Source: Rufibacter ruber
GTDB lineage: Bacteria; Bacteroidota; Bacteroidia; Cytophagales; Hymenobacteraceae
Direction: 5' to 3'
Assembly: GCF_001647275.1 (NCBI RefSeq)
Contig: NZ_LRMM01000008.1
Location: 62,001 to 126,000 of the forward strand
DNA length: 64,000 nucleotides
The translations under genes and the position numbers were made by a program. Of the stretch, positions 15,866 to 44,027 are shown in pieces; the stretch's first letter is position 1; the number at the start of each line of letters is the position of its first letter. The notes under the pieces are model-generated. The model was given only the letters and a program-made list of their open reading frames with translations. It searched no databases and had not been told where the DNA came from.

Positions 15866-16117
15866 ACTTCTGCCCTTGACTGATGTGCGCAGCACGGGCC
15901 CGGCTCAGGCTAGCGGAACAGCAACGGTTACCTACAGAGGCAGACAAAACAGCACAAGCAGCTACAGGAGAGGAACCTGAACCAGTCCTGGCGGGGAGCG
16001 CCTCTGTTAATACGGTGCCGCTCCAGCGGCAAGGCCGGAGGGCCTAGTTTTAACAGCAGTGCTCACCCCCAGGACGGGGCCCCGCGGCCGTGAGCGCTTA
16101 CCGGAAAAGATGAAACA
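15866..16117 (+). ncRNA. Putative structured RNA element, copy A
   Basis: One of three about 250-nt copies. The 5' block 'CTGATGTGCGCAGCACGGGC' and 3' block 'CCCCGCGGCCGTGAGCGCTT' then 'ACCGGAAAAGATG' are nearly invariant. Between them, 'GTCCTGGCGG' pairs with 'CCAGGAC' (closing stem), 'CTGTTAA' with 'TTAACAG', and two hairpins are copy-specific: 'GCCGCT CC AGCGGC' and 'AGGCC GGA GGGCCT'. The other copies have different arms that still pair. Purine loops favour the plus strand as the RNA. Function unknown; a stand-alone HEARO/omega-RNA-type element is one possibility. Confidence 0.6.
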
Positions 16118-16137
16118 ACTCAGTGAGTGAGGCACCC

Positions 16138-16310
16138 CGTCAAGCGCCAAAGCCAGGGGAATAGCGAACTACGGTAGCAGTCCAGCAGCAGCAACTGGCA
16201 GTCACCAAATACAGCATCAAGCGCCACCGCCAAGGGAACAGCAGACTACGCATTCCTACGCTGCCCCGGAGCAAACGGTCAAAGCAAACGAACAGCTGAC
16301 TACAAATGGC
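16138..16310 (+). repeat. Degenerate repeat array following structured element A
   Basis: Three units resembling 'AAGCGCCAAAGCCAGGGGAA' + 'NAGCGAACTACG' begin near 16140, 16219 and 16267, at irregular spacing. Equivalent arrays follow copies B and C. Confidence 0.5.
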
Positions 16311-16384
16311 TTTAAATCAACAAGATTAAGGTGATAGCTCCCACTATAAGCCCAGGATAAGTGATAACCAAACACCACGATCCT

Positions 16385-16420
16385 GTTTTTGGCCTGTTTT
16401 TAGAAAATCAGCCCCAAAAC
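16385..16420. repeat. GTTTT/GGCC palindrome family, degenerate copy 4
   Basis: 'GTTTTTGGCCTGTTTT' opposite 'GAAAATCAGCCCCAAAAC'; several mismatches. Confidence 0.45.
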
Positions 16421-16475
16421 GCACTCCTCGATATTCCTGAAAAGAAAAGAACAAGACAAAACCGGGGCATTCGTT

Positions 16476-16483
16476 ATATTTGA
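16476..16483 (+). promoter_or_regulatory. Candidate -7 box (TATATTTG) for the M16 peptidase gene
   Basis: Exact TAnnTTTG match 28 nt before the ATG at 16512; the -33 box is weak. Confidence 0.45.
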
Positions 16484-16511
16484 CTTACTACACCCACAAC
16501 CCAATTCTTAA

Positions 16512-19475
16512 ATGAAAAAAAGAACCCTTGCTTTTTCATTGATAGGCACTTTGCTGTTTGCCCAATGCAAAACCAGCACGCCGCCCCAGACCGCTTCTAC
16601 GGCCCCGCAACCGGCCACGGAAGCCCCTGCTAAAAAAGAGCTCACCTACACCACCGTCCCCAACGACCCGCTCAAGACCCGCATCTACACGCTGGACAAC
16701 GGGCTGAAAGTCTACCTCTCACAGTACAAGGCGGCACCGCGCATTCAGACGTACATTGCGGTGCGCGCGGGCAGCAAGAACGACCCGGCCAATGCCACCG
16801 GTCTGGCCCATTACCTGGAGCACATGGCGTTCAAAGGCTCCACCCGCCTGGGCACTATAGACTGGGAAAAGGAGAAAGTAGAACTGGCCAAGATTGAGGC
16901 GCTGTATGAACTGTACCGCACCCAGAAAGATCCGGCGCTGCGTCAGAAAACCTACCACCAGATTGACTCTATCTCGGGGGTAGCGGCCAAATACGCCGTG
17001 CCCAATGAGTATGACAAACTGGTGGCGGCCATGGGCATGAAGAACTCCAACGCCAGCACGTGGGTAGAACAGACCATTTACTACGGCGACATCCCCAGCA
17101 ACCAACTGGACAAGTGGGCCATGCTGGAGGCCGAGCGGTTGGGTGTGATGATTCCGAGGCTGTTCCATACTGAGTTGGAGGCCGTGTACGAGGAGAAAAA
17201 CCGGTCGCTGGACTCAGACAACAACAAGGCGTTTGAGGCGGCCTTTGCGGCGCTGTTCCCTACGCACCAGTACGGCACCCAGACCACCATTGGCACCGTG
17301 GAGCACCTCAAGAACCCGTCTATCACCGAGATTAAGAAGTACTTTGACCAGTACTACGTGCCCAACAACATGGCCATCGCCATGAGCGGCGACCTGGAGT
17401 TTGATGAGACCATCAAGGTCATTCAGGAACATTTTGGGCGGTGGCAGAAGAAGAATGACCCCGTGTACCGCGCGCCGCAGGAGAAACCCATTGCCGCGCC
17501 GGTGGTGAAAGAAGTGTTCGGCCCAGAGGCCGAAAGCCTGCTGCTGGCCTACCGTTTCCCGGGGGTGAAGAGCAAAGACGCCATTGTGCTGCGCATGATT
17601 AACCAGATTCTGAGCAACGGCCAGGCAGGTTTGATTGACCTGAACATCAACCAGAAACAAGCGGCGTTGGGCGCGGGCTCGTTCGCCGAGATTTACAATG
17701 ACTACAGCGCGCATTTCCTTTCGGGGAACCCGCGCCAGGGGCAAACGTTAGACCAGGTGCGCGATTTGCTATTGCAGCAGGTGGAACTGGTCAAGAAAGG
17801 GCAGTTTGAAGATTGGCTTATTCCGGCTATTGTGAACAAGAACAAGATTAGCAAGATGAAGAGCTACGAGAGCAACGCCGCGCGCGCCACGGCTTTCGTA
17901 GACGCGTTCCTGGCACACATGGACTGGGCCGAGTACCTGCAGCAGGAAGAGGCGTTTGAGAAAATCACCAAACAAGACGTGATGGACGTGGCCAATCGCT
18001 ACTACGGCAACAACTATGTAGCCATTTACAAGCGCACCGGCCAGGACCCTACCGCCCAGAAAGTAGAGAAACCCGCCATCACACCCGTGCCCGCCAACCG
18101 CGAGGCGCAGTCTGAGTACTACAAGCTGGTGGCTAGCAAACCGGCCTCAGACCTGCAGCCGCAGTTTGTAGATTACCAGAAAGATTTGCAGGAAGGCAAG
18201 CTTAAATCAGGGATTCCCATTTACTACACCCGCAATGCGGAAAACGGCCTGTTCAACCTGTACTACGTGCTGGAGATGGGCACCAACAACGACCCTAAAA
18301 TCGGCTTGGCCGTGGACTACCTGCAGTACCTGGGCACCGATAAATACACCGCCGAGGAGTTGCAGAAGGAGTTTTTCAAGATTGGCTGTTCGTTCAGCGT
18401 GTCCTCGGGGCAGGACCAAATCTACGTGTCGTTGAGCGGGCTGGACGAAAACCTGGAGCAGGGCCTCACGCTCTTTGAAAGCCTGCTGCAAAATCCCAAA
18501 GCCGATAAAAAAGCGCTGGAAGATTTGGTGGCCGGCATCTTGAAAGACCGCAAAGACGCCAAGCTGAACAAGAACGTGATTCACAGCGTGGCCATGGTGA
18601 ACTACGCCAAGTACGGCCCCAAGAACCCGTTCACCAACATTCTGTCTGAGCCGCAGCTTAAGAAGGTGAAGCCCGAGGAGCTGCTGTCCATCATCAAGAG
18701 CATTCCCACGTATCAGCACCACGTGTTGTACTACGGTCCTCGGCCGATGCAGGACGTGACCGCTACGCTGAATACGGGGCATAACGCACCGGCTTCGCTC
18801 AAACCTATTCCGGCGGCCAAAGAGTTCAAGGAGCTGGACATTATCAAGCGCCAGGTGCTCTGGACCGACTACAACATGGTGCAGGCCGAACTGTTGTTCC
18901 TGACCAAATCGCTGAACTATGACCCCAAGATGGTGCCTACCATCAGGCTGTACAATGAGTATTTTGACGGCGGCATGGGCGCGATTGTATTTCAGGAACT
19001 GCGCGAGTCACGGGCGTTGGCGTATAGCGCCAGCTCCAGGTTCAACAACGCCAGCCGGAAAGACCGCGCCAATTACATCATGTCGTACATAGGCACGCAA
19101 GCCGATAAACTACCCGAGGCCATGGCCGGTATGCAGGAACTCCTGAACGACATGCCGCTGGCCGCCACCAACTTTGAGAACGCCAAAGCCTCGGTGCGCA
19201 ACAGTATCGCTACGGAGCGGGTGAACAAGGTGGGCATCTTGATGAACTATGAGCAGGCCCGCAAACTGGGCGTGGACCATGACATCAGAAAAGACATCTA
19301 CGAAAGCCTGGACGCCCTCACCCTGGACCAAATCAAAGCCTTCCAGCAGCAGTTCGTGAAGGGCCAAAACCAGACCATTCTGGTGATTGGCTCCAAAGAC
19401 AGGCTCAACTTCAAAGAACTGGCCAAGTACGGCACCGTCAAACAACTCACGTTGAAGGAGCTGTTTGGGTATTAG
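16512..19475 (+). CDS. M16 family (insulinase-like) zinc metallopeptidase, lipoprotein
   Basis: 987 residues. The N-terminus has a lipoprotein signal with lipobox 'LFAQC' (Cys19), so it is probably anchored in the envelope. The inverted zinc motif HxxEH is at 100-104 ('HYLEH') with the downstream glutamate in 'ELEAVYEEKNRS'. The first M16 module covers about 55-270, the peptidase_M16_C region about 270-460, and a second degenerate M16 half about 560-980, with the conserved 'ELRESRALAYSASS' R/Y motif. This is the size of two-module bacterial M16 proteases that degrade peptides in a clam-shell chamber. Single gene with its own promoter candidate; the downstream hairpin at 19510-19539 is a likely terminator. 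Confidence 0.93.
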   Translation: MKKRTLAFSLIGTLLFAQCKTSTPPQTASTAPQPATEAPAKKELTYTTVPNDPLKTRIYTLDNGLKVYLSQYKAAPRIQTYIAVRAGSKNDPANATGLAHYLEHMAFKGSTRLGTIDWEKEKVELAKIEALYELYRTQKDPALRQKTYHQIDSISGVAAKYAVPNEYDKLVAAMGMKNSNASTWVEQTIYYGDIPSNQLDKWAMLEAERLGVMIPRLFHTELEAVYEEKNRSLDSDNNKAFEAAFAALFPTHQYGTQTTIGTVEHLKNPSITEIKKYFDQYYVPNNMAIAMSGDLEFDETIKVIQEHFGRWQKKNDPVYRAPQEKPIAAPVVKEVFGPEAESLLLAYRFPGVKSKDAIVLRMINQILSNGQAGLIDLNINQKQAALGAGSFAEIYNDYSAHFLSGNPRQGQTLDQVRDLLLQQVELVKKGQFEDWLIPAIVNKNKISKMKSYESNAARATAFVDAFLAHMDWAEYLQQEEAFEKITKQDVMDVANRYYGNNYVAIYKRTGQDPTAQKVEKPAITPVPANREAQSEYYKLVASKPASDLQPQFVDYQKDLQEGKLKSGIPIYYTRNAENGLFNLYYVLEMGTNNDPKIGLAVDYLQYLGTDKYTAEELQKEFFKIGCSFSVSSGQDQIYVSLSGLDENLEQGLTLFESLLQNPKADKKALEDLVAGILKDRKDAKLNKNVIHSVAMVNYAKYGPKNPFTNILSEPQLKKVKPEELLSIIKSIPTYQHHVLYYGPRPMQDVTATLNTGHNAPASLKPIPAAKEFKELDIIKRQVLWTDYNMVQAELLFLTKSLNYDPKMVPTIRLYNEYFDGGMGAIVFQELRESRALAYSASSRFNNASRKDRANYIMSYIGTQADKLPEAMAGMQELLNDMPLAATNFENAKASVRNSIATERVNKVGILMNYEQARKLGVDHDIRKDIYESLDALTLDQIKAFQQQFVKGQNQTILVIGSKDRLNFKELAKYGTVKQLTLKELFGY

Positions 19476-19476
19476 G

Positions 19477-19581
19477 TTAGTTGTTCGTTGGTAGTTATTC
19501 GTTATTAGCAGAAGGAGCAGCCGTGAGGTTGCTCCTTCTTGCGTTTTTGGCCTGTTTTGGCGAAAAGAGGCCAAAAACAGG
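19477..19581 (+). repeat. About 103-bp intergenic repeat with terminator and palindrome, copy 1
   Basis: Begins two bases after the M16 stop codon. It contains a perfect 10-bp terminator stem (19510-19519 with 19530-19539, then TT) and a family palindrome (19542-19580). A near-identical direct copy is at 20126-20228. The gap from here to 19843 holds one TGTCATCCTGAAAGGATCTTG copy (19623-19651) and AT-rich sequence; nothing else was seen. Confidence 0.75.
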
Positions 19582-19843
19582 TTGCTAGTTCTATTCACCA
19601 AACATATTAAAAACCACCCTCCTGTCATCCTGAAAGGATCTTGTGGGCGAACTTGAAAAGCAATAGCTAAACTGAATTACAGCTTTGAAACGAATGGTTT
19701 CAGGAAAGCTAAAAGAGTATGGCTTACTTATGAACCCTCTTAAATTATATTCTTATGCAGATAAAGCAAAGAACAAACTCTCAACTATATTTAATTACAT
19801 ATAAATCATCACTTTTACAGCATAGTATATCTCAAAGCATATA

Positions 19844-20050
19844 ATGAAGCGTTTAGCAGAGTTCGTAAAAGCCCGCAGGCGGGAGGTGAACCTTACCCAG
19901 GAGGAGTTTGCGGAACGGTCGGGGGTAGCGCTAACCGTCATCAGGAAAATTGAACAGGGAAAAACCAATCTGAACTTGGACAAAGTAAACCTGGTGCTAA
20001 ACATGTTTGGGCATGAGCTGGCATCGGTGAACAGGAAAGAACTTAGCTAA
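19844..20050 (+). CDS. XRE-family HTH regulator, HipB-like
   Basis: 68 residues, almost entirely one helix-turn-helix domain: 'RREVNLTQEEFAERSGVALT' and 'IRKIEQGKTNLNLDKVNLVL'. The size and downstream context match the HipB/y4mF-type antitoxin-repressor that normally heads a hipBA operon. The next reading frame overlaps its stop (TAATG) and starts like HipA but stops after 24 codons, so the antitoxin is now an orphan. Probably autoregulatory DNA-binding protein (family knowledge). Confidence 0.8.
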   Translation: MKRLAEFVKARRREVNLTQEEFAERSGVALTVIRKIEQGKTNLNLDKVNLVLNMFGHELASVNRKELS

Positions 20051-20124
20051 TGAGACGGGGCAAAGTATTCTACAAAGACTGGTACGCAGGTCTGCTGACG
20101 TTGAAGAGGCTGTTGGAGAATTGA
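20050..20124 (+). pseudogene. Truncated HipA N-terminal stub
   Basis: Starts in a TAATG overlap with the XRE gene. The 24 residues 'MRRGKVFYKDWYAGLLTL' plus 'KRLLEN' resemble the first strand-turn-strand of HipA N-terminal domains ('GKVYxxxxxAGxLxxx'). It stops at TGA, and the next base pair begins the 103-bp repeat copy, so the rest of hipA was probably lost in a rearrangement there. Confidence 0.6.
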
Positions 20125-20125
20125 G

Positions 20126-20228
20126 TTAGTTGTTCGTTGGTAATTATTTGTTGTTAGCAGAAGGAGCAGCCGTGAGGTTGCTCCTTCTCGTTTTCGGCCT
20201 GTTTTGGCGAAAAGAGGCCGAAAACAGG
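20126..20228 (+). repeat. About 103-bp intergenic repeat, copy 2
   Basis: Direct repeat of 19477-19581 with a few substitutions (TAGTTATTCGTTATT to TAATTATTTGTTGTT). Includes the AGAAGGAGCA/TGCTCCTTCT stem and the palindrome 20190-20225. It joins the hipA stub without spacer. Confidence 0.75.
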
Positions 20229-20312
20229 TAAGGGCAGAAGTGGGCAATCAGAGAACGGCATTTCATCAACCCACTCCTTGCATACACGTATAATATTTTA
20301 TATCTTACACGT

Positions 20313-20564
20313 ATGGAAACCAAACTCACTTTAGTTCTAGACCAGAAAATTATTGCGAGGGCCAAGTCTTATGCTTCCCACAAGAAGACGAGTGTCTCTA
20401 AATTGGTAGAAGCGTATCTGGAAAAAATCACGGTAGATGAGAATGAAACCGCAGAGATTTCGCCTTTGGTGAAAAGCCTTTCTGGAGTGCTTACGCTCCC
20501 AGCAGAACTGGACCATAAAAAGGAATATGGAGACCATTTAGCAGATAAGTACCTCCATGACTGA
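20313..20564 (+). CDS. DUF6364-type antitoxin
   Basis: 83 residues. N-terminal ribbon-helix-helix-like start 'METKLTLVLDQKIIARAKSY' and 'TSVSKLVEAYLEKI', typical of DUF6364 antitoxins, followed by an acidic tail that would wrap the toxin. It overlaps the PIN-domain gene by 8 nt, the usual translationally coupled antitoxin-first order. Expected to neutralise the PIN nuclease and repress the operon (family knowledge). Confidence 0.8.
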   Translation: METKLTLVLDQKIIARAKSYASHKKTSVSKLVEAYLEKITVDENETAEISPLVKSLSGVLTLPAELDHKKEYGDHLADKYLHD

Positions 20565-20973
20565 AATCTTCATTGACACCAATGTGTGTCTGGACCTTTT
20601 AGCCCAACGAGAACCGCACTATACCTACGCCGCTTCTTTGTTTACCCTCGCTGACAAAGGAGAAATAAAACTGTACGTGTCTTCCCTTTCTTTCTCCAAC
20701 TTGAATTACCTTCTGTCCAGGCAATACTCCATGCCCGAAGCCCGGCGCATTTTAAGCAAGTTCAAGGTGTTGGTGAAGGTATTACCCGTAGATGACAAAG
20801 TCATTGAGTTGGCCCTCCATTCAAACTTTAAAGATTTTGAAGACGCCATTCAGTATTTCACCGCCATTGAATCTGGGATAAAGTTGCTGTTGACTAGAAA
20901 TTTGAAAGATTATAAAAAGGCAGAGATACAGGTGCAAACGCCGGAATTGTTTTTGAAAGGGAGGGAGATGTAG
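20557..20973 (+). CDS. PIN-domain toxin (VapC-like ribonuclease)
   Basis: 138 residues covering one PIN domain: 'FIDTNVCLDLLAQRE' with the first catalytic Asp, 'VSSLSFSNLNYLL', the acidic 'DFEDAIQYFTA' and the final 'LLTRNLKDY' motif. PIN toxins cleave tRNA or rRNA with Mg2+ when freed from their antitoxin. It is coupled to the DUF6364 gene. Acidic positions look intact, so the module is probably functional. It lies at the left edge of the accessory region containing the restriction-modification operon. Confidence 0.85.
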   Translation: MTEIFIDTNVCLDLLAQREPHYTYAASLFTLADKGEIKLYVSSLSFSNLNYLLSRQYSMPEARRILSKFKVLVKVLPVDDKVIELALHSNFKDFEDAIQYFTAIESGIKLLLTRNLKDYKKAEIQVQTPELFLKGREM

Positions 20974-21026
20974 TTTAATAAAATAGAACTACATCAACTT
21001 GCTATATATTTCAACGCCACAGTATT

Positions 21027-21212
21027 TTAGATATTTACCTCTGCGTACAGGGCTTGCAAGGCAGCACGTTTGCCTGCCTCGGTTTCCACCCGCACCAAGG
21101 CCCGCACGTGCGCGCCTCATTTGCGCAACTCTTCGGTGATGAGGCCACCTAAGTGGCCGATGGCTCCCGCGAGGATGATGGTTGGGATGTTGGGAGAGGT
21201 GGAAGTGGTCAT
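21027..21212 (-). pseudogene. Fragment of NmrA-like NAD(P)-binding protein with in-frame stop
   Basis: Reading leftward from ATG at 21212 gives 'IPTIILAGAIGHLGGLITEE', a Rossmann start with the GxxGxxG pattern of NmrA/isoflavone-reductase-like proteins. An in-frame TGA at 21119-21117 interrupts 'ELRK * GAHVRALVR', where an Arg codon is expected; the frame then continues 'VETEAGKRAALQAL' and stops at 21027. Only the first 60 or so residues of a roughly 300-residue family remain. The rest of 20974-21471 is AT-rich and shows no further gene. Confidence 0.65.
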
Positions 21213-21471
21213 AGTAATTGAGATGTTTTGTCTCAAGAACTCTGAATAGGCGAAAAAGTTATGAGTGAATAGTAACGCAGATGAAATGCCCATTCATTTG
21301 TTGCTACAAAATATATTCTGTGTTTTAGTAATGCTTACTCAGTTACCATTGATCTAATAATGTATTTTTGGCATCTCACCTAGGTTGCTTGACCAGAGTA
21401 GCTGCGTTTATTCTAAAGTTAGTATCTAGCATAAGCTGAAAATCAAACAAATAATAAAGCGATATAATTAA

Positions 21472-25215: not shown

Positions 25216-25250
25216 CCAGTAAACTTCCGTTTGTAAGCAAGGTACTTTTT

Positions 25251-27402: not shown

Positions 27403-27436
27403 AAAGGCCGCTTGAGATTTCTCCCAAGCGGCCTTT
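27403..27436. terminator. Terminator, duplicated copy
   Basis: 12-bp stem 'AAAGGCCGCTTG' / 'CAAGCGGCCTTT' with loop AGATTTCTCC. Identical stem and loop at 28388-28421, downstream of icd. Part of the partial duplication. Confidence 0.9.
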
Positions 27437-27458
27437 CCTTTTCAAACCAACTCTCCTA

Positions 27459-27726
27459 TTAGAACTGATCAATATAAGTATTCAACGTTGCACTAGGTCG
27501 CATAGCGGTAGACACCTTCGCCAGGTCTGGGTGGAAGTAACCGCCCATATCCACCGGTTTGCCTTGCTCGGCAATCTGCTCCTGCACAATCTTCTCCTCG
27601 TTTTCAGTCAGCGCTTTGGCCAGGTCTGAGAAACGGGCTTTCAGCTCCTCGTTCTTGGTTTGCTCGGCCAAGGCCTGGGCCCAGTAAAGCGCCAGGTAGA
27701 AGTGGCTTCCGCGGTTGTCAATGCCA
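27459..27726 (-). pseudogene. Duplicated 3' fragment of monomeric isocitrate dehydrogenase
   Basis: On the minus strand, 88 codons plus stop match the C-terminus of the full gene at 28443-30668, from '[20 protein letters not shown]' to 'TLNTYIDQF'. About five residues differ (for example '[11 protein letters not shown]' against '[11 protein letters not shown]'). Similarity stops abruptly near 27726 and includes the terminator on the left. Too short to be an enzyme. It is a direct duplication about 0.98 kb from the parent. Confidence 0.9.
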
Positions 27727-28387: not shown

Positions 28388-28421
28388 AAAGGCCGCTTGA
28401 GATTTCTCCCAAGCGGCCTTT
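28388..28421. terminator. Terminator between icd and YkgJ-like gene
   Basis: Stem 'AAAGGCCGCTTG' / 'CAAGCGGCCTTT'; serves two convergent genes (ends 28363 plus, 28443 minus). Confidence 0.92.
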
Positions 28422-28442
28422 ATTCTTTAACCTCAGCTCCTC

Positions 28443-30737
<2,295 letters not shown>

Positions 30738-32594: not shown

Positions 32595-32633
32595 GCACTC
32601 AGGACTTAGAACTCAAGACTCAGAACTACAAAT

Positions 32634-34135: not shown

Positions 34136-34140
34136 CAGGC

Positions 34141-34878: not shown

Positions 34879-35032
34879 ACCAACCACACCCAGCCATTCT
34901 GTCTTACAACTATTCAAACAGCCCATCCAACTCTGACATTATTTCCGAAAAACAGCCCCAAAACGCCTCGGCACCTGCTTTGCTTTAACCGTCGTAGAGT
35001 AAAAAACTAGAAACTACGGAAAAACAAAACAT

Positions 35033-37651
35033 ATGAACTTTAACAACTATACCATCAAAAGCCAGGAGGCCGTGCAGAAGGCAACCGAGATTGCCGGCGG
35101 CAACCAGCAGCAGGCCATTGAGACGGGGCACTTGCTGAAGGGTATCCTGCAGACCGACGAGAACGTGACCGGTTTCTACCTGAAGAAGCTGGGCGTGAAC
35201 GTGAACCAATTCAACACCCGCCTGGACGAGATTGTGAACGCCTACCCTAAAGTGAGCGGCGGCAGTCCGTACCTGGGCAATGATGCCGCGGCGGCGTTAC
35301 AGAAAGCCAACTCGTATTTGAAAGAATTTGGGGATGAGTACGTGGCCATTGAGCACTTATTGCTGGGCTTGCTGGCCGGCCGTGACAAAACCGCTACGCT
35401 CTTAAAAGACAGCGGTATCACGGAGAAAGGCCTGAAAGCAGCCATCAAAGAACTGCGCGGTGACTCTAAAGTGACTGACCAAAACGCCGAGGCGAAATAC
35501 AACTCGCTCAAGCGTTACGCCATTGACCTGAACGAGCAGGCTCGCCTAGGCAAGATTGACCCGGTGATTGGCCGTGACGAGGAAATCAGGCGCGTGTTGC
35601 AGATTCTGAGCCGCCGTACCAAAAACAACCCGATTCTGCTGGGTGAGCCGGGCGTAGGTAAAACCGCCATCGTAGAAGGTCTGGCCCAGCGCATTGTGTC
35701 TGGTGACGTGCCCGAGAACCTCAAGTCCAAAACCATCATGAGTCTGGATATGGGCTTACTGGTAGCAGGAGCCAAATACAAAGGCGAGTTTGAGGAGCGT
35801 CTGAAAGCGGTCATCAAAGAAGTAGTAGACTCTGAGGGCGAGATTGTGCTCTTCATTGACGAGATCCACACCCTGATTGGAGCCGGTGCCGGTGGCGACA
35901 GCGCCATGGATGCCGCGAACCTTCTGAAACCAGCTTTGGCCCGCGGGGAATTGCATGCCATTGGTGCCACCACTTTGAAAGAGTACCAGAAGTACTTTGA
36001 GAAAGACAAAGCCATGGAGCGTCGGTTCCAGGCGGTGACGGTAGATGAACCCAGCATTCCAGATGCCATTTCCATCCTGCGTGGTATTAAAGAGAAGTAC
36101 GAGTTGCACCACGGCGTGCGCATCAAAGACGATGCGGTGATTGCTGCCGTGGAACTGTCCAGCCGCTACATCTCTGACCGTTTCTTGCCCGACAAAGCCA
36201 TTGACCTGGTAGACGAGGCCGCTTCTAAACTGCGCATCGAGATTGACTCTTTGCCTGTAGAGCTGGACGAGGTGCAGCGCAAGATCATGCAGTTGGAGAT
36301 TGAGCGCGAAGCCATCCGCCGTGAGAATGATAAGGAGAAAGAGAACCTGCTTTCCAAAGAGATTGCTGATTTAAGCGAAACCCGTGACGCCCTGCGCGCC
36401 AAATGGCAGAGTGAGAAACAGGTGATTGAAGGCATCCAGAAACAGAAGGAAGCCATTGAGCAGTACCGACTGGAAGCCGAGCAGGCCGAGCGCGCCGGGG
36501 ATTACGGTAGAGTAGCCGAGCTGCGTTACGGTAAAATCCAGGAGGCCGAAGCCAAGCTGCGCGAACTGCAGGAGCAGGTGAAACAGCAGCAGGAAGGTGA
36601 CCGCATGCTACAGGAGGAAGTAACCTCTGAAGACATCGCCGAGGTTGTGGCTAAGTGGACTGGCGTGCCAGTGAATAAGATGTTGCAAAGTGACCGCGAG
36701 AAACTGTTGCACCTGGAAGAAGAACTGGGCCGTCGCGTGGCCGGTCAGGAAGAAGCCATTGCCGCTATTTCTGATGCCGTGCGCCGCAGCCGGGCCGGCC
36801 TGCAAGACCCCAAACGCCCTATCGGTTCATTTATCTTCCTGGGTACCACCGGGGTGGGTAAAACCGAGCTCGCCAAGGCGCTGGCCGACTTCCTGTTCAA
36901 CGACGAGAACGCCATGGTGCGCATTGACATGAGTGAGTACCAGGAGCGCCACGCCGTGAGCCGTCTGGTGGGAGCGCCTCCGGGATACGTAGGCTACGAC
37001 GAAGGCGGTCAGTTGACCGAAGCCGTTCGCCGGAAGCCGTACTCTGTCATCTTGCTGGACGAGATTGAGAAAGCGCACCCAGACGTGTTTAACATCTTGC
37101 TGCAAGTGCTGGATGATGGTCGTTTGACTGATAACAAAGGCCGCGTGGCCAACTTCAAGAACACCATCATCATCATGACGTCTAACATTGGGGCGCACAT
37201 TATTCAGGAGAACTTCCAGCATCTGGATGAACTGAACCCTGAGCCCACCATTGACCGGACCCGTGACGAGGTGTTTGAGCTCTTGAAGAAGACCCTGCGC
37301 CCTGAGTTCCTGAACCGAATTGATGAGTTGATCATGTTCCGGCCGTTGAGCTCCCGTGAGATCCGGAAGATTGTGGACATCCAGTTCCGTCAGATCCAGG
37401 ACCGTCTGGAAGACACCGGCATCCGTCTGGAAGCCACCGACGAGGTACTGGACTTCCTGGGCCACGAGGGTTACGATCCGCAGTTCGGCGCCCGTCCGTT
37501 GAAGCGTGTGCTGCAACGCCGTATCCTGAACGAGCTGTCCAAAGCCATCTTGGCCGGTGACATCCGGAAAGACGCCGTGGTAGAAGCCGTACTGGAAGGG
37601 GATCAGATCAAGTTCATCAACGTGGACATTGACCTGCCCATTGACAGGTAA
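35033..37651 (+). CDS. clpB: ATP-dependent disaggregase ClpB
   Basis: 872 residues, the normal size. Hexameric AAA+ chaperone that pulls aggregated proteins apart with DnaK after heat stress. It has a double Clp N-domain (about 1-145), first Walker A '[15 protein letters not shown]' (about 205), the long coiled-coil middle domain (about 405-525) that separates ClpB from ClpA/C, second Walker A '[14 protein letters not shown]' (about 605) and Walker B '[16 protein letters not shown]'. No ClpP-binding loop was recognised. A terminator starts 26 nt after the stop. Confidence 0.97.
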
Positions 37652-37677
37652 TTGATAGTGAGTGATTAAAAGTGGTG

Positions 37678-37708
37678 AAGCGGCCGGAGAATTTCTCCGC
37701 GCTTTTTT
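37678..37708 (+). terminator. clpB terminator
   Basis: AAGCG/CGCTT base and CGGAGA/TCTCCG upper stem followed by a run of seven T. Confidence 0.85.
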
Positions 37709-37720
37709 TACGGCCTTCCG

Positions 37721-37753
37721 TTTTGGGGCTGTTTTCTGAAAACAGCCCCAAAA
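37721..37753. repeat. GTTTT/GGCC palindrome family, copy 7
   Basis: Perfect 15-bp stem 'TTTTGGGGCTGTTTT' / 'AAAACAGCCCCAAAA' around CTG. Confidence 0.75.
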
Positions 37754-37819
37754 AAGACTTAGCGGGTTTTCTTCTCCCTGCGGAAAAGGTTTTTCAGTTG
37801 TTATGGCAAAAGCAACTGG

Positions 37820-37870
37820 CACAGACGCTCGCAGGTCTGAAAGACGCTACGAGGTCTTTTGAGCAGGCGG
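37820..37870 (+). repeat. REP element related to the RAYT ends
   Basis: 'CAGACGCTCGCAGGTC', 'GACGCTACGAGGTCTT' and the exact trailing 'GAGCAGGCGG' also found just inside the left RAYT repeat (34180-34190). Confidence 0.7.
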
Positions 37871-37893
37871 TACAGCGGGGGCAGGTGTATAGA

Positions 37894-37980
37894 ACCCACC
37901 CTTCCCGGGAGGGGAGTTTTCTGGAATGCGTGCTCTCCTGAGTCAAACATCCCCCTTCGCCCCCTTCCAAAGGGGGAGTA
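37894..37980 (+). repeat. Mosaic intergenic element
   Basis: 'CCCACCCTTCCCGGGAGGGG' hairpin, 'TGGAATGCGTG', then 'CCCCCTTCGCCCCCTTCC' with 'AAAGGGGGAGTAT'. Third copy of the mosaic family. Confidence 0.6.
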
Positions 37981-38380
37981 TTGGAGTGAGTCCTGAGTTA
38001 TGAGTCTTGAGTCCAGAGTCCTTTCTTTTCCCCTTAGGCAATTCAGCAGGAATGAAGCAGCAATGCCTGGTTTCGCCGCCGCGCCGCGGGGGCAGCCAGA
38101 GACCGCCCGTCATCAGTAGACACGATTCTGGGGACTCGCGCCAGCGCGTGAGTATCAGCTGGCGTTAGAAGGCACGGAAGTAACTTCCGCGCCATAGAGG
38201 AGCTATAGAGGGCAGAGGTAATGTGAGGCGGCCGCCTCATGGAAGATGAAAGCTTCCGCCATTATAGGTCCAAGTTGGAAACTTGAACCAGTGAAAGCGA
38301 CAAATAAGCAGCAATAAGTAAGCAAACAAGCAGCAATGAACAATCAACACTTCTGCCAGTGGCACCTCTGTTAAATCAAC

Positions 38381-38627
38381 ACTTCTGCCCTTGGCTGATG
38401 TGCGCAGCACGGGCTCGCCATAGGCTAGCGGGACAACAACGGTTACCTACTGAAACAGACAGAGCAAGTAAGGAAGTAACAGGAGAGGAACCCAGACCAG
38501 TCCTGGCGGGGAGCGCCTCTGTTAATACGGTGCCCAAGGCAACGCCAAAGGCGTAGTTTTAACAGCAGTGCGAGCCGCCAGGACGGGGCCCCGCGGCCGT
38601 GAGCGCTTACCGGAAAAGATGAAACAA
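38381..38627 (+). ncRNA. Putative structured RNA element, copy B
   Basis: Second about 250-nt copy. The closing stem 'GTCCTGGCGG' / 'CCGCCAGGAC' is perfect here, 'CTGTTAA' / 'TTAACAG' is kept, and the two variable hairpins are 'TGCC CAA GGCA' and 'ACGCC AAA GGCGT'. The last 40 bases match copies A and C almost base for base. The sequence 'AATCAACACTTCTGCC' before it is partly duplicated (38342 and 38375). No ORF is conserved between copies. Confidence 0.62.
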
Positions 38628-38644
38628 TGCAGCTACTAAACACC

Positions 38645-38900
38645 GCGACAAGCGCTAAAGCCAAGGGAGCAGCGGACTACGTATTCCTAAAATAACAGCA
38701 CTGCAGCAAGCGGCAAAGCCAAGGGAATAACGAACTACGCATACACTCCTGCTAACAACAATGAAACAGAAGGGGCTTTTGATGCCCTGCTCCCAACTGC
38801 ACTGCCAAGGCAACAGCAGACTTCGCCTTCCAGCCGCAGCCAGGGGAACAGCGATCTGTATTCCGTCAAGGGGAACAGCAAAGTAGATATTGCCACTGTA
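38645..38900 (+). repeat. Degenerate repeat array following structured element B
   Basis: At least four units of the type 'AAGCGGCAAAGCCAAGGGAA' + 'NANCGNACTACG', near 38648, 38706, 38795 and 38835, spacing 40-90 bp. Many contain a small GGC-AAA-GCC hairpin. Confidence 0.5.
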
Positions 38901-38966
38901 GCTACAACTTCCGGTGAAAGCACACACTACTCTTTCCTGCACCTCCATCCAGCAAAAAGACACATA

Positions 38967-39012
38967 TTTCTGTTTTTAGCCTGTTTTTCCAAAAACAAGT
39001 CAAAAACAGAAA
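38967..39012. repeat. GTTTT/GGCC palindrome family, copy 8
   Basis: Outer 'TTTCTGTTTTT' / 'AAAAACAGAAA' perfect; inner arm diverged. Confidence 0.55.
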
Positions 39013-39091
39013 CTCATCAGCACCCTTGCCAGAGCCCCAGCATTTTCTAATTTTGTCAACTGTTCCTGTGTACCCCCTTATTCTTCTTTCT

Positions 39092-39694
39092 GTGTCTTCT
39101 GTCTTCTACACGTACCTCCAACTGGGCTTTCACCATATTTTCAACCTGCAGGCGTATGACCACATGGTGTTTGTGCTGGCCATGTGCGCGGTGTACTCCG
39201 GCAGTGAGTGGCGTAGAATTCTGGCGCTGGTCACCAGTTTTACCGTTGGCCACTCTATCACGCTGGCGCTTTCCACGCTGGAGATGCTCACATTCAACAC
39301 GGCCCTGATTGAACTCCTGATTCCCGTCACTATCTTAATCACCTGCCTGTACAATTTCACCCAACTGAACAAAGGCAAGAAAAAAGGCGGCGCGCTCTGG
39401 TCCTGGAACAATGTATTCGCCATTGCCTTCGGGCTGATTCACGGCATGGGGTTCTCCAATTACCTGAAGTCTTTGCTGGGGAAAGGGCAGAACATTGTGC
39501 TGGAGCTGTTTGCGTTTAACGTGGGCATAGAACTGGGGCAGTTGCTCATTGTGGCGCTGGTGCTGCTGATCAACCTCCTGCTCACCCACATCCTGCACGT
39601 AAAGAAACGGGACTGGATACTTGGCGTGAGCAGCGCCGCGGGGGCCATTGCGCTCATGCTGATTCTGGGCCAGGATTTATCGGCTGTTTTTTAG
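39092..39694 (+). CDS. HupE/UreJ family membrane protein
   Basis: About 200 residues from a GTG at 39092; TTG codons at 39026 and 39053 are alternatives in the same frame and there is no ATG. The GTG is preferred because it gives the family-typical start 'SSVFYTYLQLGFHHIF'. Six or so membrane helices are visible, with 'AYDHMVFVLAM', 'TSFTVGHSITLAL', 'FGLIHGMGFSNYL' and 'FNVGIELGQL'; the conserved His/Asp/Glu sites resemble HupE/UreJ nickel (or cobalt) permease-like proteins. Substrate here is unknown, since no urease or hydrogenase gene is in the window. The stop codon lies inside the terminator stem. Confidence 0.85.
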   Translation: MSSVFYTYLQLGFHHIFNLQAYDHMVFVLAMCAVYSGSEWRRILALVTSFTVGHSITLALSTLEMLTFNTALIELLIPVTILITCLYNFTQLNKGKKKGGALWSWNNVFAIAFGLIHGMGFSNYLKSLLGKGQNIVLELFAFNVGIELGQLLIVALVLLINLLLTHILHVKKRDWILGVSSAAGAIALMLILGQDLSAVF

Positions 39695-39711
39695 GGAACA
39701 GCCTTTTTTTT
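39682..39711 (+). terminator. HupE/UreJ terminator overlapping the stop codon
   Basis: 'GGCTGTT' pairs with 'AACAGCC' around TTTAGGG, followed by eight T. The TAG stop (39692-39694) is in the loop. The segment TTTTTAGGGAACAGCC is repeated once more directly after. Confidence 0.85.
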
Positions 39712-39767
39712 AGGGAACAGCCTTAAAACAGGAACGTACACCCCATGTTCCTTTTACATTTTCTCTC

Positions 39768-40388
39768 ATGCTGGCGGAGTCATACAGAGTCTTGCAACTT
39801 CCGTACGGGGCGCAGATGTCCCAGATCAGGCAGGCCTACCGCCAGCTGGTACTCCAATACCACCCAGACCGGAACCGCCAACCGGGTGCCTATGAAGTAT
39901 TCCTGCAAGTGCAGGCAGCGTATGAGTACCTCCAAAAGTACCACACCGTTGGCGTTGCCGCCCCTGCTTTTCCCCCTGCCCCCCAAACTGCTGCCACCAA
40001 AGCTGAGCGCGACTGGGAAAAGTACCAGCACCTGTATGAACCGCCCGCAGACCCCAGAGAGTTTGCGGCCTGGGCCGAAGTGGCGCGCGAGCGGGTACGC
40101 CGCCAGAAGGAGAAAGACCATGCCGCCTACGTGCAGCGCACGCTGGAGATGAAAAAGCAATGGTGGTACGGCATTGCCTTGGCCAGCAGCTATGCCCTGC
40201 TCCTGGCCGGCAGTCTGACAGGAATTGTCATTGCCATCATTCCGTTTCTCTTTCTGCTGAGCGACCACCCCAAACGGGTGTTTCTGGCGGTCATTCTGGT
40301 GCCCGTTGGCTGGCGAATTGTCAACATCATGCAGAACTTCCGGCAAGACATCCGGCGCCACTTTGGGGAAGACCTGCCGGAAGAATGA
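39768..40388 (+). CDS. J-domain (DnaJ-like) membrane protein
   Basis: 206 residues. Residues 3-62 form a J domain with the HPD motif ('LQYHPDRNRQ') and helix II-IV pattern ('QIRQAYRQLV', 'AAYEYLQKY'). A linker follows ('WEKYQHLYEPPADPREFAAW') and two membrane helices near 135-185 ('YALLLAGSLTGIVIAIIPFLFLL' region and 'VFLAVILVPVGWRIV'). J domains stimulate DnaK ATPase, so it may recruit DnaK to the membrane (inference). It is not a full-length DnaJ; no zinc-finger or substrate domain. Confidence 0.85.
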   Translation: MLAESYRVLQLPYGAQMSQIRQAYRQLVLQYHPDRNRQPGAYEVFLQVQAAYEYLQKYHTVGVAAPAFPPAPQTAATKAERDWEKYQHLYEPPADPREFAAWAEVARERVRRQKEKDHAAYVQRTLEMKKQWWYGIALASSYALLLAGSLTGIVIAIIPFLFLLSDHPKRVFLAVILVPVGWRIVNIMQNFRQDIRRHFGEDLPEE

Positions 40389-40472
40389 AACTGGCACCCC
40401 GGCGTTTTTTTCTTTGGCGGCAAATCGCGAAATTGCCCTTTCACCCGAACCACAAACAACCCATCCGTTTCA

Positions 40473-42797
40473 ATGAAGATATCTTTGCTCGCCGCCGGCC
40501 TGTTGCTTTCATTGGCAGGCTCCGCCTTGGCGCAAGAGAATACAGATAAATCAAAATTCAGGCAGCTGGCACAGGAACTGCCCACCCCCAACGTGTACCG
40601 CTCCGCCTCCGGGGCCCCCGGCCATGAGTACTGGCAGCAGCGCGCCGACTACAACATCAAGGTGGAGCTGAATGATGACAACCAGTCGGTGACCGGTTCT
40701 GAGACCATCACCTACACCAACCTGTCGCCAGACGTGTTGACGTACCTCTGGGTGCAGCTGGACCAGAATATCTTTGAGAAGAATTCCATGAACAGCCTCA
40801 CCCAAACCAGCCGCATTCCCGCCAAGCCCACCTTTGAGGCCGCTGAGGCCCTGGCCGAGCAGACGTTTGACGGCGGTTACAAAATCAAAGCGGTAAAAGA
40901 CGCCAACGGCAGAGCTTTGCCCTATGTGATCAACTTCACCATGATGCGCATAGACCTTCCAACGCCATTGAAGCCCAAGCAGAGCGTGAAGTTCAGTATT
41001 GACTGGTTCAACAACATCAATGACCAGAAGAAACAGGGCGGCCGCGGCGGCTACGAGTATTTCCCCAAAGACGGGAACTACGAGTACCAGATGGCGCAGT
41101 GGTTCCCGCGCATGGCCGTGTATGATGACGTGAACGGCTGGCAGCACAAGCAGTTTTTGGGCACGGGTGAGTTTGCGCTTCCGTTTGGGGACTACCGCGT
41201 GAGCATTACCGTACCAGCTGACCATGTGGTGGCCTCTACCGGTGAACTGCAGAACCCAGACCAGGTCATGACCAGCACCCAGCGCAGCCGCATGGCACAG
41301 GCGCAGAAGGCAAACAAACCCGTACTCATTGTGACCCAGGCTGAGGCGGAGCAAGCCGAAAAAAACAAGGCCAAAGGCAAAAAGACGTGGGTGTATTCAG
41401 CTAAAAACGTGCGTGACTTTGCCTGGGCCAGCTCCCGTAAGTTCATCTGGGATGCCATGAACGTGAACGTAGCCGGCAAGAACACCTTGGCCATGAGCTA
41501 CTACCCCAAAGAAGGCAACCCGCTGTGGGGACAGTACTCCACCGAGGTGGTGGCGCACACGCTAAAGGTCTACTCCAGGTTCACCATTGACTACCCGTAC
41601 CCCGTGGCTATCTCAGTGCACGGCGCCGTGGGCGGAATGGAGTACCCTATGATCTCGTTCAACGGGGGTCGGCCAGAGGCCGATGGCTCGTATACCGAGC
41701 GCACCAAGTACGGCATGATCTCAGTGATCATCCACGAAGTGGGGCACAACTTCTTCCCCATGATCATCAACTCAGACGAGCGCCAGTGGACCTGGATGGA
41801 TGAAGGCCTCAACACATTTGTACAGTACCTCGCAGAGCAGGAGTGGCAGCGGGATTACCCGTCGCGCCGCGGCGAGCCCCGTAACATTGTGGAGTACATG
41901 AAGATGGACAAGAGCCTGCAGCAGCCCATCATGACCAACTCTGAGTCTATCACCCAGCTGGGCAACAACGCCTATGGCAAACCGGCCACCGCCCTCAATA
42001 TTCTGCGGGAGACAGTGATGGGCCGCAAGCTGTTTGACTATGCTTTCAAGGAATACGCGCGCCGCTGGGCCTTCAAACACCCCATGCCGGCCGACTTTTT
42101 CAGAACCATGGAAGACGCCTCTGGCACTGATCTGGACTGGTTCTGGAGAGGCTGGTTCTACACCACAGACCACGTAGACCAGGAACTGACGGGGGTGCGT
42201 TGGTTCAGTGTTGACTCCAGAAACCCAGAGGTGGAGAACGCCCGCCGCCGGTCAGAGATTAACGCGGCCCCGCAGAGCCTTTCCCAGCAGCGCAACCTGC
42301 AGGACATCCCCAAGACGCTGGTTGACGTGAAGCCGGAACTGAAGGATTTCTACAACACCTATGACCCACTGGCCGTGACCGAAGAAAGCAAAGCGCAGTA
42401 CCAGAAGTACCTGCAGAGCCTCACCCCAGAAGAGCGCGCCTTCCTGGAAAAAGGCTTCAACTTCTATGAAGTGGGGGTTAGGAACAACGGCGGACTGGTG
42501 ATGCCCCTGGTGGTACAGATGAACTTTACAGACGGCACCAACCAGGTTGTGCGCATCCCCGCTGAAATCTGGCGCTACAATGAGCAGGAGATCACCAAAG
42601 TGTTTGTCACTGAAAAACCCGTGGCCAGCTTTGTGCTAGACCCTTTCCAGGAAACGGCAGACATCAACCTAGACAACAACGCTTATCCGCAGCGGGCCCA
42701 GCCTTCACGGTTTGAACTGTTCAAGCAGCAGCCCCAGGGTATTACGCCAAACCCGCTCCAGCAGCAGATGCAACGCCAGCAAGGGAACGGCAGATAG
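40473..42797 (+). CDS. M1 family zinc aminopeptidase, secreted
   Basis: 774 residues; signal peptide ending 'GSALAQ'. The zinc site HExxH is at 421-425 ('IIHEVGHNFFP') with the third ligand Glu444 in 'WTWMDEGLN'; the exopeptidase-type motif upstream reads 'GAVGGMEYPM' (GxMEN-like but with EYPM, as in the DUF/M1 subgroup of Bacteroidota). An N-terminal beta domain (about 50-300) precedes the thermolysin-like domain (about 310-570). It probably trims peptides from the N-terminus in the periplasm or outside. It ends in a Gln-rich tail; no T9SS domain. Confidence 0.92.
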   Translation: MKISLLAAGLLLSLAGSALAQENTDKSKFRQLAQELPTPNVYRSASGAPGHEYWQQRADYNIKVELNDDNQSVTGSETITYTNLSPDVLTYLWVQLDQNIFEKNSMNSLTQTSRIPAKPTFEAAEALAEQTFDGGYKIKAVKDANGRALPYVINFTMMRIDLPTPLKPKQSVKFSIDWFNNINDQKKQGGRGGYEYFPKDGNYEYQMAQWFPRMAVYDDVNGWQHKQFLGTGEFALPFGDYRVSITVPADHVVASTGELQNPDQVMTSTQRSRMAQAQKANKPVLIVTQAEAEQAEKNKAKGKKTWVYSAKNVRDFAWASSRKFIWDAMNVNVAGKNTLAMSYYPKEGNPLWGQYSTEVVAHTLKVYSRFTIDYPYPVAISVHGAVGGMEYPMISFNGGRPEADGSYTERTKYGMISVIIHEVGHNFFPMIINSDERQWTWMDEGLNTFVQYLAEQEWQRDYPSRRGEPRNIVEYMKMDKSLQQPIMTNSESITQLGNNAYGKPATALNILRETVMGRKLFDYAFKEYARRWAFKHPMPADFFRTMEDASGTDLDWFWRGWFYTTDHVDQELTGVRWFSVDSRNPEVENARRRSEINAAPQSLSQQRNLQDIPKTLVDVKPELKDFYNTYDPLAVTEESKAQYQKYLQSLTPEERAFLEKGFNFYEVGVRNNGGLVMPLVVQMNFTDGTNQVVRIPAEIWRYNEQEITKVFVTEKPVASFVLDPFQETADINLDNNAYPQRAQPSRFELFKQQPQGITPNPLQQQMQRQQGNGR

Positions 42798-42798
42798 C

Positions 42799-42843
42799 TT
42801 CTGTTTTCAGCCTGTTTTCTGAAAAGTAGGCCCAAAACAGAAA
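42799..42843. repeat. GTTTT/GGCC palindrome family, copy 9
   Basis: 'TTCTGTTTTCAGCCTGTTTT' opposite 'CCCAAAACAGAA', starting next to the stop codon; imperfect core. Confidence 0.6.
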
Positions 42844-42848
42844 GGAAC

Positions 42849-42886
42849 AAACCGAAAGGCTCCTCTAGTGGGGAGCCTTTCGGTTT
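42849..42886 (+). terminator. M1 peptidase terminator
   Basis: Perfect 15-bp stem 'AAACCGAAAGGCTCC' / 'GGAGCCTTTCGGTTT' with a T-run. Confidence 0.92.
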
Positions 42887-43059
42887 TTCTGGCCATTTCA
42901 CCCTTGCAGGAACGGCAGGGTATCTCCTGGCTTTTGCTCTATTGTACCACCCCGTAGACCTGCAACAAAGAGCTGATTTGCATTGGGAGCAGGGGGCCTT
43001 CACTTCAAGATTACGTTTTTGGCGTGTTTTGTAAAAAGCAGGTCAGAAACGGAAAATGG

Positions 43060-43100
43060 TGCAGACGCCCACAGGTGCTGCGCACGCTACAAGGTCTTTT
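43060..43100 (+). repeat. REP element, diverged
   Basis: 'GCAGACGCCCACAGGTGCTG' then 'GCACGCTACAAGGTCTTTTT'. Fourth REP of the RAYT-related group; preceded by a degenerate palindrome (43013-43052). Confidence 0.5.
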
Positions 43101-43177
43101 TGAAATTGCTGATTGTTCATTGCTGATTTAAATAAAGGAACTGGCGCGCGACTCCTGTCTTGTGCCATGGGCTGGGT

Positions 43178-43193
43178 CGAGTCTCCAGACTCG
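43178..43193. repeat. CGAGTCTCCAGACTCG palindrome
   Basis: Same palindrome as 15594-15611; another, CGAGTCTGGAGACTCG, is at 43689-43704. Confidence 0.55.
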
Positions 43194-43225
43194 CCGGGAA
43201 CTGTATGACGTTCAGGAATACGTGG

Positions 43226-43347
43226 AACCCACCCCTACCCCTCCAGGGAAGGGAATTTCAGCAATGAGTGGGACCTATGCCCTATGCCCGTATACCTCTG
43301 GCATGCGTGTTCAGCAGGTGTCAACATCCTCCTTCGCCCCCTTCAAA
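43226..43347 (+). repeat. Mosaic intergenic element, interrupted by an insertion
   Basis: 'CCCACCCCTACCCCTCC', a CCTCCTTCGCCCCCTTCAAA arm, then the family's expected AAGGGGGAG arm is found only at 43543-43551, after the 191-bp insertion. Confidence 0.6.
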
Positions 43348-43538
43348 GGGCAGTGCCGTTAAGTTCTACTAAAATGAAGTTGCTCTTCCTGATTTGCAAT
43401 CCGGAAGCAGGTAATGCGGGGATTTGCAATCCCCGTCTCAGCCCTCCAGACCTGCACAAGCCGCGGATTACAAATCCGCAGGATACGCTAGTTCGGAATT
43501 GCAAATCCCGAACAGCCGAGAACTTAACAGCCCTGCCC
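43348..43538. mobile_element. MITE-like insertion with 20-bp inverted ends and target-site duplication
   Basis: Left end 'GGGCAGTGCCGTTAAGTTCT'; the reversed right end is 'GGGCAGGGCTGTTAAGTTCT' (18 of 20 match). TTCAAA flanks both ends (43342-43347 and 43539-43544). The inside holds four small hairpins of the type GGATT-TGC-AATCC (43391, 43417-43434, 43463-43479, 43492-43512). No gene. Inserted in the stem of a mosaic repeat. Confidence 0.65.
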
Positions 43539-43776
43539 TTCAAAAGGGAGGTAACGAAAGGAGTCCTGAGTCTTGAGTTCTGAAGTCATTTAATCCCGCT
43601 CTGGCAATCCAGCACGGGTAAACCAGCACTGCGCATGGTCGCTGCCCGGCAGCGAGGGTAGTCAGAGACTACCCATCATCATTAGACACGAGTCTGGAGA
43701 CTCGCGCCAGCAGGACCTGCTGCAGTTGCTGTAGCTGCTGCAGCAGCCACTATCAGTCTGCCATAGCCAATCCACC

Positions 43777-44027
43777 ACTTCTGCCCCCCGACTGATGTGC
43801 GCAGCACGGGCTCGTCTCAGGCTAGCGGATCTACAATAGTTACCTGCAGAGGCAGCAATAAACAGGAAAGACTGATCAGGAAAGGGACAGAGACCAGTCG
43901 TGGGGATGAGCGCCTCTGGTTCTCGGTGCTGCTTTAGCAGCAAAACCGAAGGTTTAGAGAAGCAGCAGTGCGAATCGCCAGGACGGGGCCCCGCGGCCGT
44001 GAGCGCTTACCGGAAAAGATGGAACAG
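43777..44027 (+). ncRNA. Putative structured RNA element, copy C
   Basis: Third copy and the most diverged one, yet the 5' block 'CTGATGTGCGCAGCACGGGC' and 3' block are intact. Variable hairpins are 'TGCTGC TTTA GCAGCA' and 'AAACC GAA GGTTT'; both differ in sequence from copies A and B and both remain fully paired. The 'CTGTTAA' stem of A and B is replaced by a TGCTGCTT/AAGCAGCA alternative. The closing stem has two mismatches. Confidence 0.6.

Follow-up and report, generated by a model that had tools for sequence, protein, structure and literature searches.

A structured repeat family of Rufibacter ruber and other Cytophagales with a single-strand fold kept by compensatory change

The three structured elements in the 64-kb stretch of Rufibacter ruber DNA that we analysed (the window) are members of a structured repeat family that reaches about 80 dispersed copies per genome in some Cytophagales, and it is strongly supported that selection acts on their folded single strand, keeping the fold rather than the letters. 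With moderate confidence we take the members of the family to be non-autonomous mobile elements, comparable to SINEs or MITEs, that work as a folded single strand, most likely of RNA. We favour this mobile-element reading because of the high copy number, the patchy sites, the inverted pairs and the mosaic copies. The family merits attention for a one-stranded fold that includes a pseudoknot and a tandem-GA motif and was kept by compensatory change across several families while the sequence turned over, and for its occurrence in two states, a single copy under constraint and tens of copies dispersed through a genome.

Copies in the window, the genome and the order

A covariance model built from 61 diverse cores (R2) matched the window exactly three times at E<=1, always on the plus strand (Table 1), which agrees with the three plus-strand copies of the original prediction. 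Its description of a three-copy family holds for the window but not for the genome: a model built from 32 copies of the Rufibacter ruber genome (R1) returned 135 matches there, comprising 78 sense-strand matches (at least 111 bits), 56 antisense hairpin echoes and one 47-nt fragment at a contig edge, the 78 being a lower bound with 150 of 1896 candidates scored. Protein coding is not conserved, as had been proposed, since any of the six frames is free of stops in at most 2 of 32 copies, and the lengths of these copies (220-227 nt) represent all three remainders modulo 3. To call the surrounding tracts gene-free was too plain, as the copies are embedded among other short palindromic repeats. 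Copy 2 lies 3' of clpB (35033-37651, ClpB domains matched), in the same orientation as that gene.

Table 1. Positions of the three element copies in the window, of the helices of copy 1 and of flanking repeats
Feature	Position	Strand	Evidence
Copy 1, conserved core (P1/P2/P3/P4, pseudoknot and ATGAAAC tail)	15977-16122	+	R2 match, 129.9 bits, E 6.4e-40
Copy 2, conserved core	38492-38631	+	R2 match, 126.4 bits, E 8.6e-39
Copy 3, conserved core (lowest score of the three)	43889-44031	+	R2 match, 120.6 bits, E 6.2e-37
Copy 1, Rufibacter-level unit with extra 5' domain (TGATGTGCGCAGCACGGGC...)	15881-16106	+	R1 match, 272.5 bits
Copy 2, Rufibacter-level unit	38396-38615	+	R1 match, 243.5 bits
Copy 3, Rufibacter-level unit	43793-44015	+	R1 match, 227.9 bits
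Copy 1, stem P1 and P1b, enclosing P2-P4	15985-16075 (within 15985-16001 and 16059-16075)	+	Fold; covariation, columns 9-25/101-117
Copy 1, stem P2	16004-16056 (within 16004-16013 and 16047-16056)	+	Fold; columns 28-32/94-98
Copy 1, hairpin P3 (first hairpin of the original prediction)	16016-16031	+	Fold; columns 43-46/62-65; three versions in the window
Copy 1, hairpin P4 (second hairpin of the original prediction)	16032-16045	+	Fold; three versions in the window; outside the 30-pair count
Copy 1, hairpin P5 (16078-16081 with 16086-16089) and pseudoknot, loop CGC (16083-16085) with GCG (16094-16096)	16078-16096	+	Columns 120-131, 125-127/137-139
Flanking module CGCTCGCAGG..CTACGAGGTC, 5' of copy 2	37814-37863 (also 15467-15516, 43054-43103)	+	Repeat family D10
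Tail repeats of the GCCAAGGGAA..ACTAC type	38640-38738 after copy 2; 44040-44160 after copy 3	+	Families D11, D15

A covariance-model search of the genome and its relatives, proposed earlier as a check, revealed many more copies, in several families of the order. R1 matched 58 of 204 genomes of Hymenobacteraceae, in four of six genera; this count is a lower bound because R1 found nothing in G008 (genus g2), where R2 found 82 copies. Among 390 genomes sampled from the order R2 matched 36, of which eight lie in four other families (f11, f19, f5 and f15), and its count for G010 (genus g3) was 72. Counts within genus g5 were one (G192), three (G150) and up to at least 11 in genus-mates; genus g4 contained no element in either the R1 family search or the R2 order search. 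When R2 was applied across the class, 7 of 395 genomes gave matches and three were accepted. Four matches from beyond the order, at E 1e-4 to 1e-3, were rejected, three being just 63-80 nt long and the fourth (L343) lacking the motifs by eye. A 25-base exact pattern was found in records of Rufibacter, Pontibacter and Sabulibacter among the 80 listed of 105, and phage, plasmid and viral collections gave no match to the element queries used. Judged by titles, we found no published account of this repeat family.

We kept as a lead a locus (L342) of G655, a genome from another family of the class, where short hairpins at 858-917 and 1501-1580 both precede AGGCC(C)CTGCGGCCATGAGCAGA. The pair is divergent and about 580 nt apart, its motif order is a hairpin with GGCC..GCGGCC..TGAGC, and it looks like a stripped-down element; an 18-base pattern derived from it matched once in G655 and in none of 8 other genomes.

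A fold maintained by compensatory change

In the conserved unit, of about 120 nt, a long stem is interrupted by a tandem-GA internal motif, the inner stem ends in a three-way junction in most lineages, and a small 4-bp hairpin (P5) follows, whose loop forms a pseudoknot with the bases immediately 3' of it. Double changes were present in just 6 of 52 pairs of the within-genome alignment (A2), whose copies are too young, so that homologues from other genomes were needed. The resulting alignment (A4) holds 61 of 80 anchored sequences, with 19 near-duplicates or odd ones omitted and 1 of 81 matches unanchored, and was scored for P1 (columns 9-18/108-117), P1b (22-25/101-104), P2 (28-32/94-98), P3 (43-46/62-65), P5 (120-123/128-131) and the pseudoknot (125-127/137-139). 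We found double changes in 21 of these 30 pairs, including all five of P2. Paired cells amounted to 95.5%, compared with 81.9% in shuffled and at most 43.5% in slid controls, and the covariation score was 0.382, compared with 0.133 (shuffled) and at most 0.113 (slid), where the shuffle tests are inflated by sequence kinship that the slid controls retain.

These values, together with the one-stranded pairing bias described below, bear out the earlier proposal of selection on a folded strand. The paired variants quoted in its support also stand, for the first hairpin as GCCGCT/AGCGGC, TGCC/GGCA and TGCTGC/GCAGCA and for the second as AGGCC/GGCCT, ACGCC/GGCGT and AAACC/GGTTT. Across 92 sequences of all lineages (the 98 rows of alignment A5 minus the antisense L079 row, L340, L341, two L342 rows and L343), the stem cells include 151 G-U and 3 A-C combinations, and the fold is therefore that of the sense strand in single-stranded form. 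DNA hairpins tolerate G-T pairs too, so that the G-U excess is compatible with RNA and with single-stranded DNA.

Pseudoknot versions in the 61 sequences were CGC/GCG (52), CCC/GGG (4), CTC/GAG (1) and TGC/GCA (1), the other three having one broken pair, and RNAalifold recovered this helix from A4 unprompted, in place of P5. An alternative RNAalifold pairing, of columns 6-7 with 120-121, was replaced by P5 in the structure that we scored. Three of the four P5 pairs are invariant in A4, and the remaining one (121-130) is G-C in 56 sequences, C-G in one and unpaired in four; T-A and A-T versions of P5-homologous pairs occur in the 92-sequence set. The tandem GA/GA motif between P1 and P1b is present in 53 of 61 sequences, with Watson-Crick pairs at the same site in seven (GA/TC in 5, CC/GG in 1, GG/CC in 1) and AA/GA in one. 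Thermodynamic folding gave the 120-nt core of copy 1 a z of -4.2, with 0 of 200 dinucleotide shuffles as good, and eight cores of different lineages gave z between -2.1 and -6.4, each matched by 0 to 4 of 200 shuffles.

The f11 sequence folds with its inner part as one long hairpin, the three-way junction being absent, and the extra 5' domain of the Rufibacter unit is unconserved in other lineages. The closing stem of that unit (A2 columns 7-22 with 206-220) is almost invariant and was set aside as unproven. A small GGGGGTAGGGGCCCTC insert, or its complement, occurs inside the fold at differing places in L153, L164 and L171 (G150) and in L052 (G151).

Boundaries, site turnover and a fixed site

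Similarity among the copies compared is mostly limited to the core, which begins at about CAG and finishes at GAGCG or GAGGGC, in G255 (four copies), G412 (four), the f15 genome (three) and G221 (two). The lineages of Hymenobacteraceae have each added flanking domains of their own, and the copies there lie amid other repeats. For 67 copies found by pattern in 70 Rufibacter ruber loci, we recorded ATG[AGC]AAC immediately 3' of 61, a GCCA[AG]GG tail 3' of 59, an upstream CCCCCTT..CAAAGGGG repeat at 45, a GTCCAAGT..ACTTGAACC hairpin at 33 and, by a strict pattern, the CGCTCGCAGG..CTACGAGGTC module upstream of nine. Within-genome similarity continues beyond ATGAAAC, and the ATGA near which the element had been thought to end is not an insertion boundary. 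By eye, the Rufibacter ruber copies look like mosaics in which each segment is drawn from a small number of alleles, a pattern suggestive of recombination between them.

A 40-bp palindrome family (GTTTTnGGCCTGTTTTn..AAAACAGGCCnAAAAC type) has 17 copies in the 64 kb (e.g. 12666-12706, 19542-19582, 46345-46385 and 63405-63445), shows paired changes between its arms by eye and is also found 3' of clpB in congeners. Lineage-specific short words crowd intergenic DNA, namely AAGTATAG in G167 (loci L039, L076 and L077), CTATAG in G174 (L046 and L087) and CCAAGGGAACAGC..ACTACGCATTCC in Rufibacter ruber (15300-16560, 37900-39100 and 42780-45100 of the window), and the spacers look filled with such micro-repeats.

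Turnover was seen at one site in one genus. Of the 16 genomes of the genus, three (Rufibacter ruber, G139 and G142) have an element within 1.5 kb downstream of clpB, in the same orientation, and the other 13 gave no match there; it is missing from the genome whose ClpB is most similar (98%) and present in two at 94%. This sharing can also reflect an old insertion followed by loss. Because each of the three copies resembles the family of its own genome, concerted evolution and independent insertion are indistinguishable at this site. Many dispersed non-coding copies and site turnover, the hallmarks of a small non-autonomous interspersed repeat, are both found here.

Paired copies are a feature of G008. 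Using 81 of its 82 matches, we counted 17 pairs of neighbours less than 3 kb apart, 16 of them divergent (minus, then plus), one tandem and none convergent; the divergent pairs have 124-438 nt between them, and most copies in this genome are single. The outer ends on both sides could be located for 4 of 10 inverted pairs, and these gave no sign of target-site duplication: the longest words common to their flanks measure 4-5 nt (mean 4.75), and mismatched flanks have a mean of 4.33. The ten interiors are AT-rich (26-41% GC) and do not contain a shared promoter of the full TTG-N18-22-TAnnTTTG form, with a lone TAnnTTTG in one. Gene orientation around the ten pairs follows no rule (four same-strand (--), four convergent, one divergent and one (++)), and the strand distribution of 42 minus and 39 plus copies is nothing striking as a replication-strand bias.

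We propose that a putative trans-acting enzyme or binding protein recognises the element by its fold and would copy or move it into intergenic DNA, after which recombination and repeated amplification would keep the copies of each genome alike. Some copies, such as the conserved single copy of f11, probably now function in the transcript that contains them. Three congeners of f11 have the element as a syntenic single copy. Its identity between species is 94-95%, whereas that of the adjoining 60 nt is 93, 63 and 62% on the upstream side and 30, 18 and 70% on the downstream side in the three comparisons; in the closest pair, the upstream flank is no less alike than the element. As far as these identities can indicate, the site shows constraint without mobility, and mobility alone would not be the whole account. 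Some copies, that of f11 among them, look functional.

The mostly diverged flanks of this fixed site also favour a host-functional RNA, either a trans-acting small RNA or a 3'-UTR or intercistronic structure (marking an mRNA end, affecting stability or binding a protein), whose copies would arise by duplication and not by mobility of their own. Gene orientation points the same way in part: where an upstream gene was called for distant copies, it is co-oriented with the element in 14 of 16 (12 of 14 when independent sites are counted). The corresponding figures are 51 of 68 elsewhere in the family and, for named genomes, 43 of 64 (p=0.008), with Pontibacter contributing 16 of 19 and Rufibacter 25 of 40; the family and named-genome sets have genomes in common. 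The Rufibacter ruber genome, however, has no such bias (28 of 56, one copy being included twice as L009 and L031), and the downstream gene has none in the named genomes (33 of 72). Genes were called by a simple longest-ORF rule; the family and own-genome counts draw on 124 of 137 elements with both neighbours called, of which 22 share sequence with an ORF of 110 aa or more, and the named-genome counts on 80 loci listed of 105, with duplicates and three copies overlapping long ORFs excluded. Moreover, the neighbouring genes appear unrelated, and copy numbers that range from 1 to at least 11 in g5, up to 82 in the family and none in g4 are ill suited to an essential RNA. We regard a host-functional RNA as possible, though clearly less probable than a mobile element. 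If it is correct, the family would represent an unlisted RNA class in more than 50 sequenced species (58 in Hymenobacteraceae alone).

Known RNA classes, candidate enzymes and comparable repeats

The 4227 models of Rfam 15 gave no match inside the element, whether in the whole window at gathering scores, in three loci at E<=10 or in 20 diverse loci at E<=0.5; sub-gathering matches were chance hairpins elsewhere in the loci. The only match above gathering score in the 20 diverse loci was a SAM riboswitch outside the element (L094, 1243-1345). The scan, which had been suggested with HEARO (RF02033), group II introns and other classes in mind, thus assigns the element to none of them. Our alignment and covariance model make the choice between a mobile element and a host RNA testable where Rfam detects nothing.

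The likeness to stand-alone HEARO/omega-RNA put forward in the original prediction would mean an RNA guiding an IscB or TnpB nuclease in trans. HEARO does occur as stand-alone copies, and the high copy number, the strong pseudoknotted fold and the intergenic position of our element would all suit such a role, as would a TGAT that is weakly conserved directly 5' of the core in several lineages. That TGAT is, however, absent from most Rufibacter copies inspected, and RF02033 matched neither the window nor the three or the 20 diverse loci. TnpB (PF07282) was above the cut-off in 0 of 21 genomes, compared with 6 of 14 controls, G158 having one sub-threshold match that contains a stop; the IscB domain RRXRR (PF14239) was found in 0 of 21 but likewise in 0 of 14 control genomes, leaving its absence unproven. 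The HEARO/IscB omega-RNA is likewise a large structured RNA (PMC9755519), and the element differs in having neither an Rfam match nor a partner nuclease that we could find. We consider this explanation largely refuted and very improbable.

Movement could instead involve a folded single-stranded DNA on which a Y1 (HUH) transposase, TnpA or RAYT, would act; the element would then be an unusually large REP/BIME-like sequence or a derivative of IS200/IS605. Y1 domains are present in 156 of 204 genomes of the family (E<=0.001), including most carriers of the element, short palindromes such as GTAGGGACAGGTCGCGACCTGTCCC lie nearby, and the inverted pairs and the lack of a visible target-site duplication in the scorable ones would also fit, as BIMEs contain inverted pairs. 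Against this, G142 and G010 are both rich in copies without a Y1 match, and genus g4 has Y1 matches without the element. REP elements are 20-40 bp palindromes tagged GTAG or CGTC and associated with RAYT (PMC3733652). Our element resembles REP and BIME sequences in its intergenic position, high copy number and hairpins, but it is a multi-stem unit of about 120 nt, several times the length of a REP, that starts with CAG, has no GTAG/CGTC tag and includes a three-way junction, a tandem-GA motif and a pseudoknot. We therefore think a Y1 substrate unlikely.

Retro-copying by a reverse transcriptase now in the genome is less likely still. The fold is RNA-like, and reverse transcriptase domains (RVT_1) were detected in 11 of 21 genomes, including Rufibacter ruber, G139, G008, G010 and G255, but five carriers (G142, G174, G158, G412 and G221) have no RVT_1 match. 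Of the candidate partners, reverse transcriptase, IscB, TnpB and Y1 transposase, none fits co-occurrence with all carriers, though for IscB the controls were silent too. These searches identified no mobilising enzyme, which speaks against the mobile-element reading, as does the lack of a target-site duplication in the scorable pairs.

Returning to the mobile-element reading, the element most likely belongs, by analogy, with the small intergenic mobile repeats, from which its far richer fold and some site-constrained copies set it apart. Bacterial interspersed repeats are usually simple palindromes, and we know of no ERIC/IRU-type repeat with such a rich fold, compensated across several families. 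The small intergenic mobile repeats comprise ERIC/IRU, the pneumococcal repeat unit, Correia/Neisseria elements and Yersinia palindromic sequences, for which a review mentions RNA secondary-structure motifs (PMC2229807). Like these, the present element is small, non-autonomous and mostly intergenic; unlike them, as far as is known, it combines a long stem, tandem-GA motif, three-way junction and pseudoknot in a strand-specific fold with compensatory change across several families, and has a single-copy constrained site. Compared with a MITE, with its terminal inverted repeats and target-site duplication, the element is found as inverted pairs only in part, and the scorable pairs have no duplication. 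Eukaryotic SINEs derive from 7SL or tRNA genes; the element resembles them as a structured RNA-like unit that is single in some lineages and amplified in others, and differs in that we found neither machinery nor a retro-signature. A bolder version, which we advance tentatively and think unlikely as a whole, is that of a bacterial SINE: a constrained single-copy RNA in some Cytophagales, amplified in Hymenobacteraceae to about 80 copies per genome and moved through its folded strand by a putative trans-acting enzyme, forming a new order-wide RNA class. If the fold is the recognition unit for movement, the family would offer a tractable bacterial model of SINE-like spread.

The window contains other repeats and a tmRNA gene. 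A 273-nt direct repeat, 88% identical, has copies 984 nt apart (27403-27725 and 28388-28709), each preceded by the same 34-nt hairpin, and tandem-like repeats with a period of about 879 nt occupy 6493-9985 within an ORF of 1588 aa (5764-10530). The tmRNA gene lies at 46472-46845 and encodes the tag peptide GESNYAMAA.
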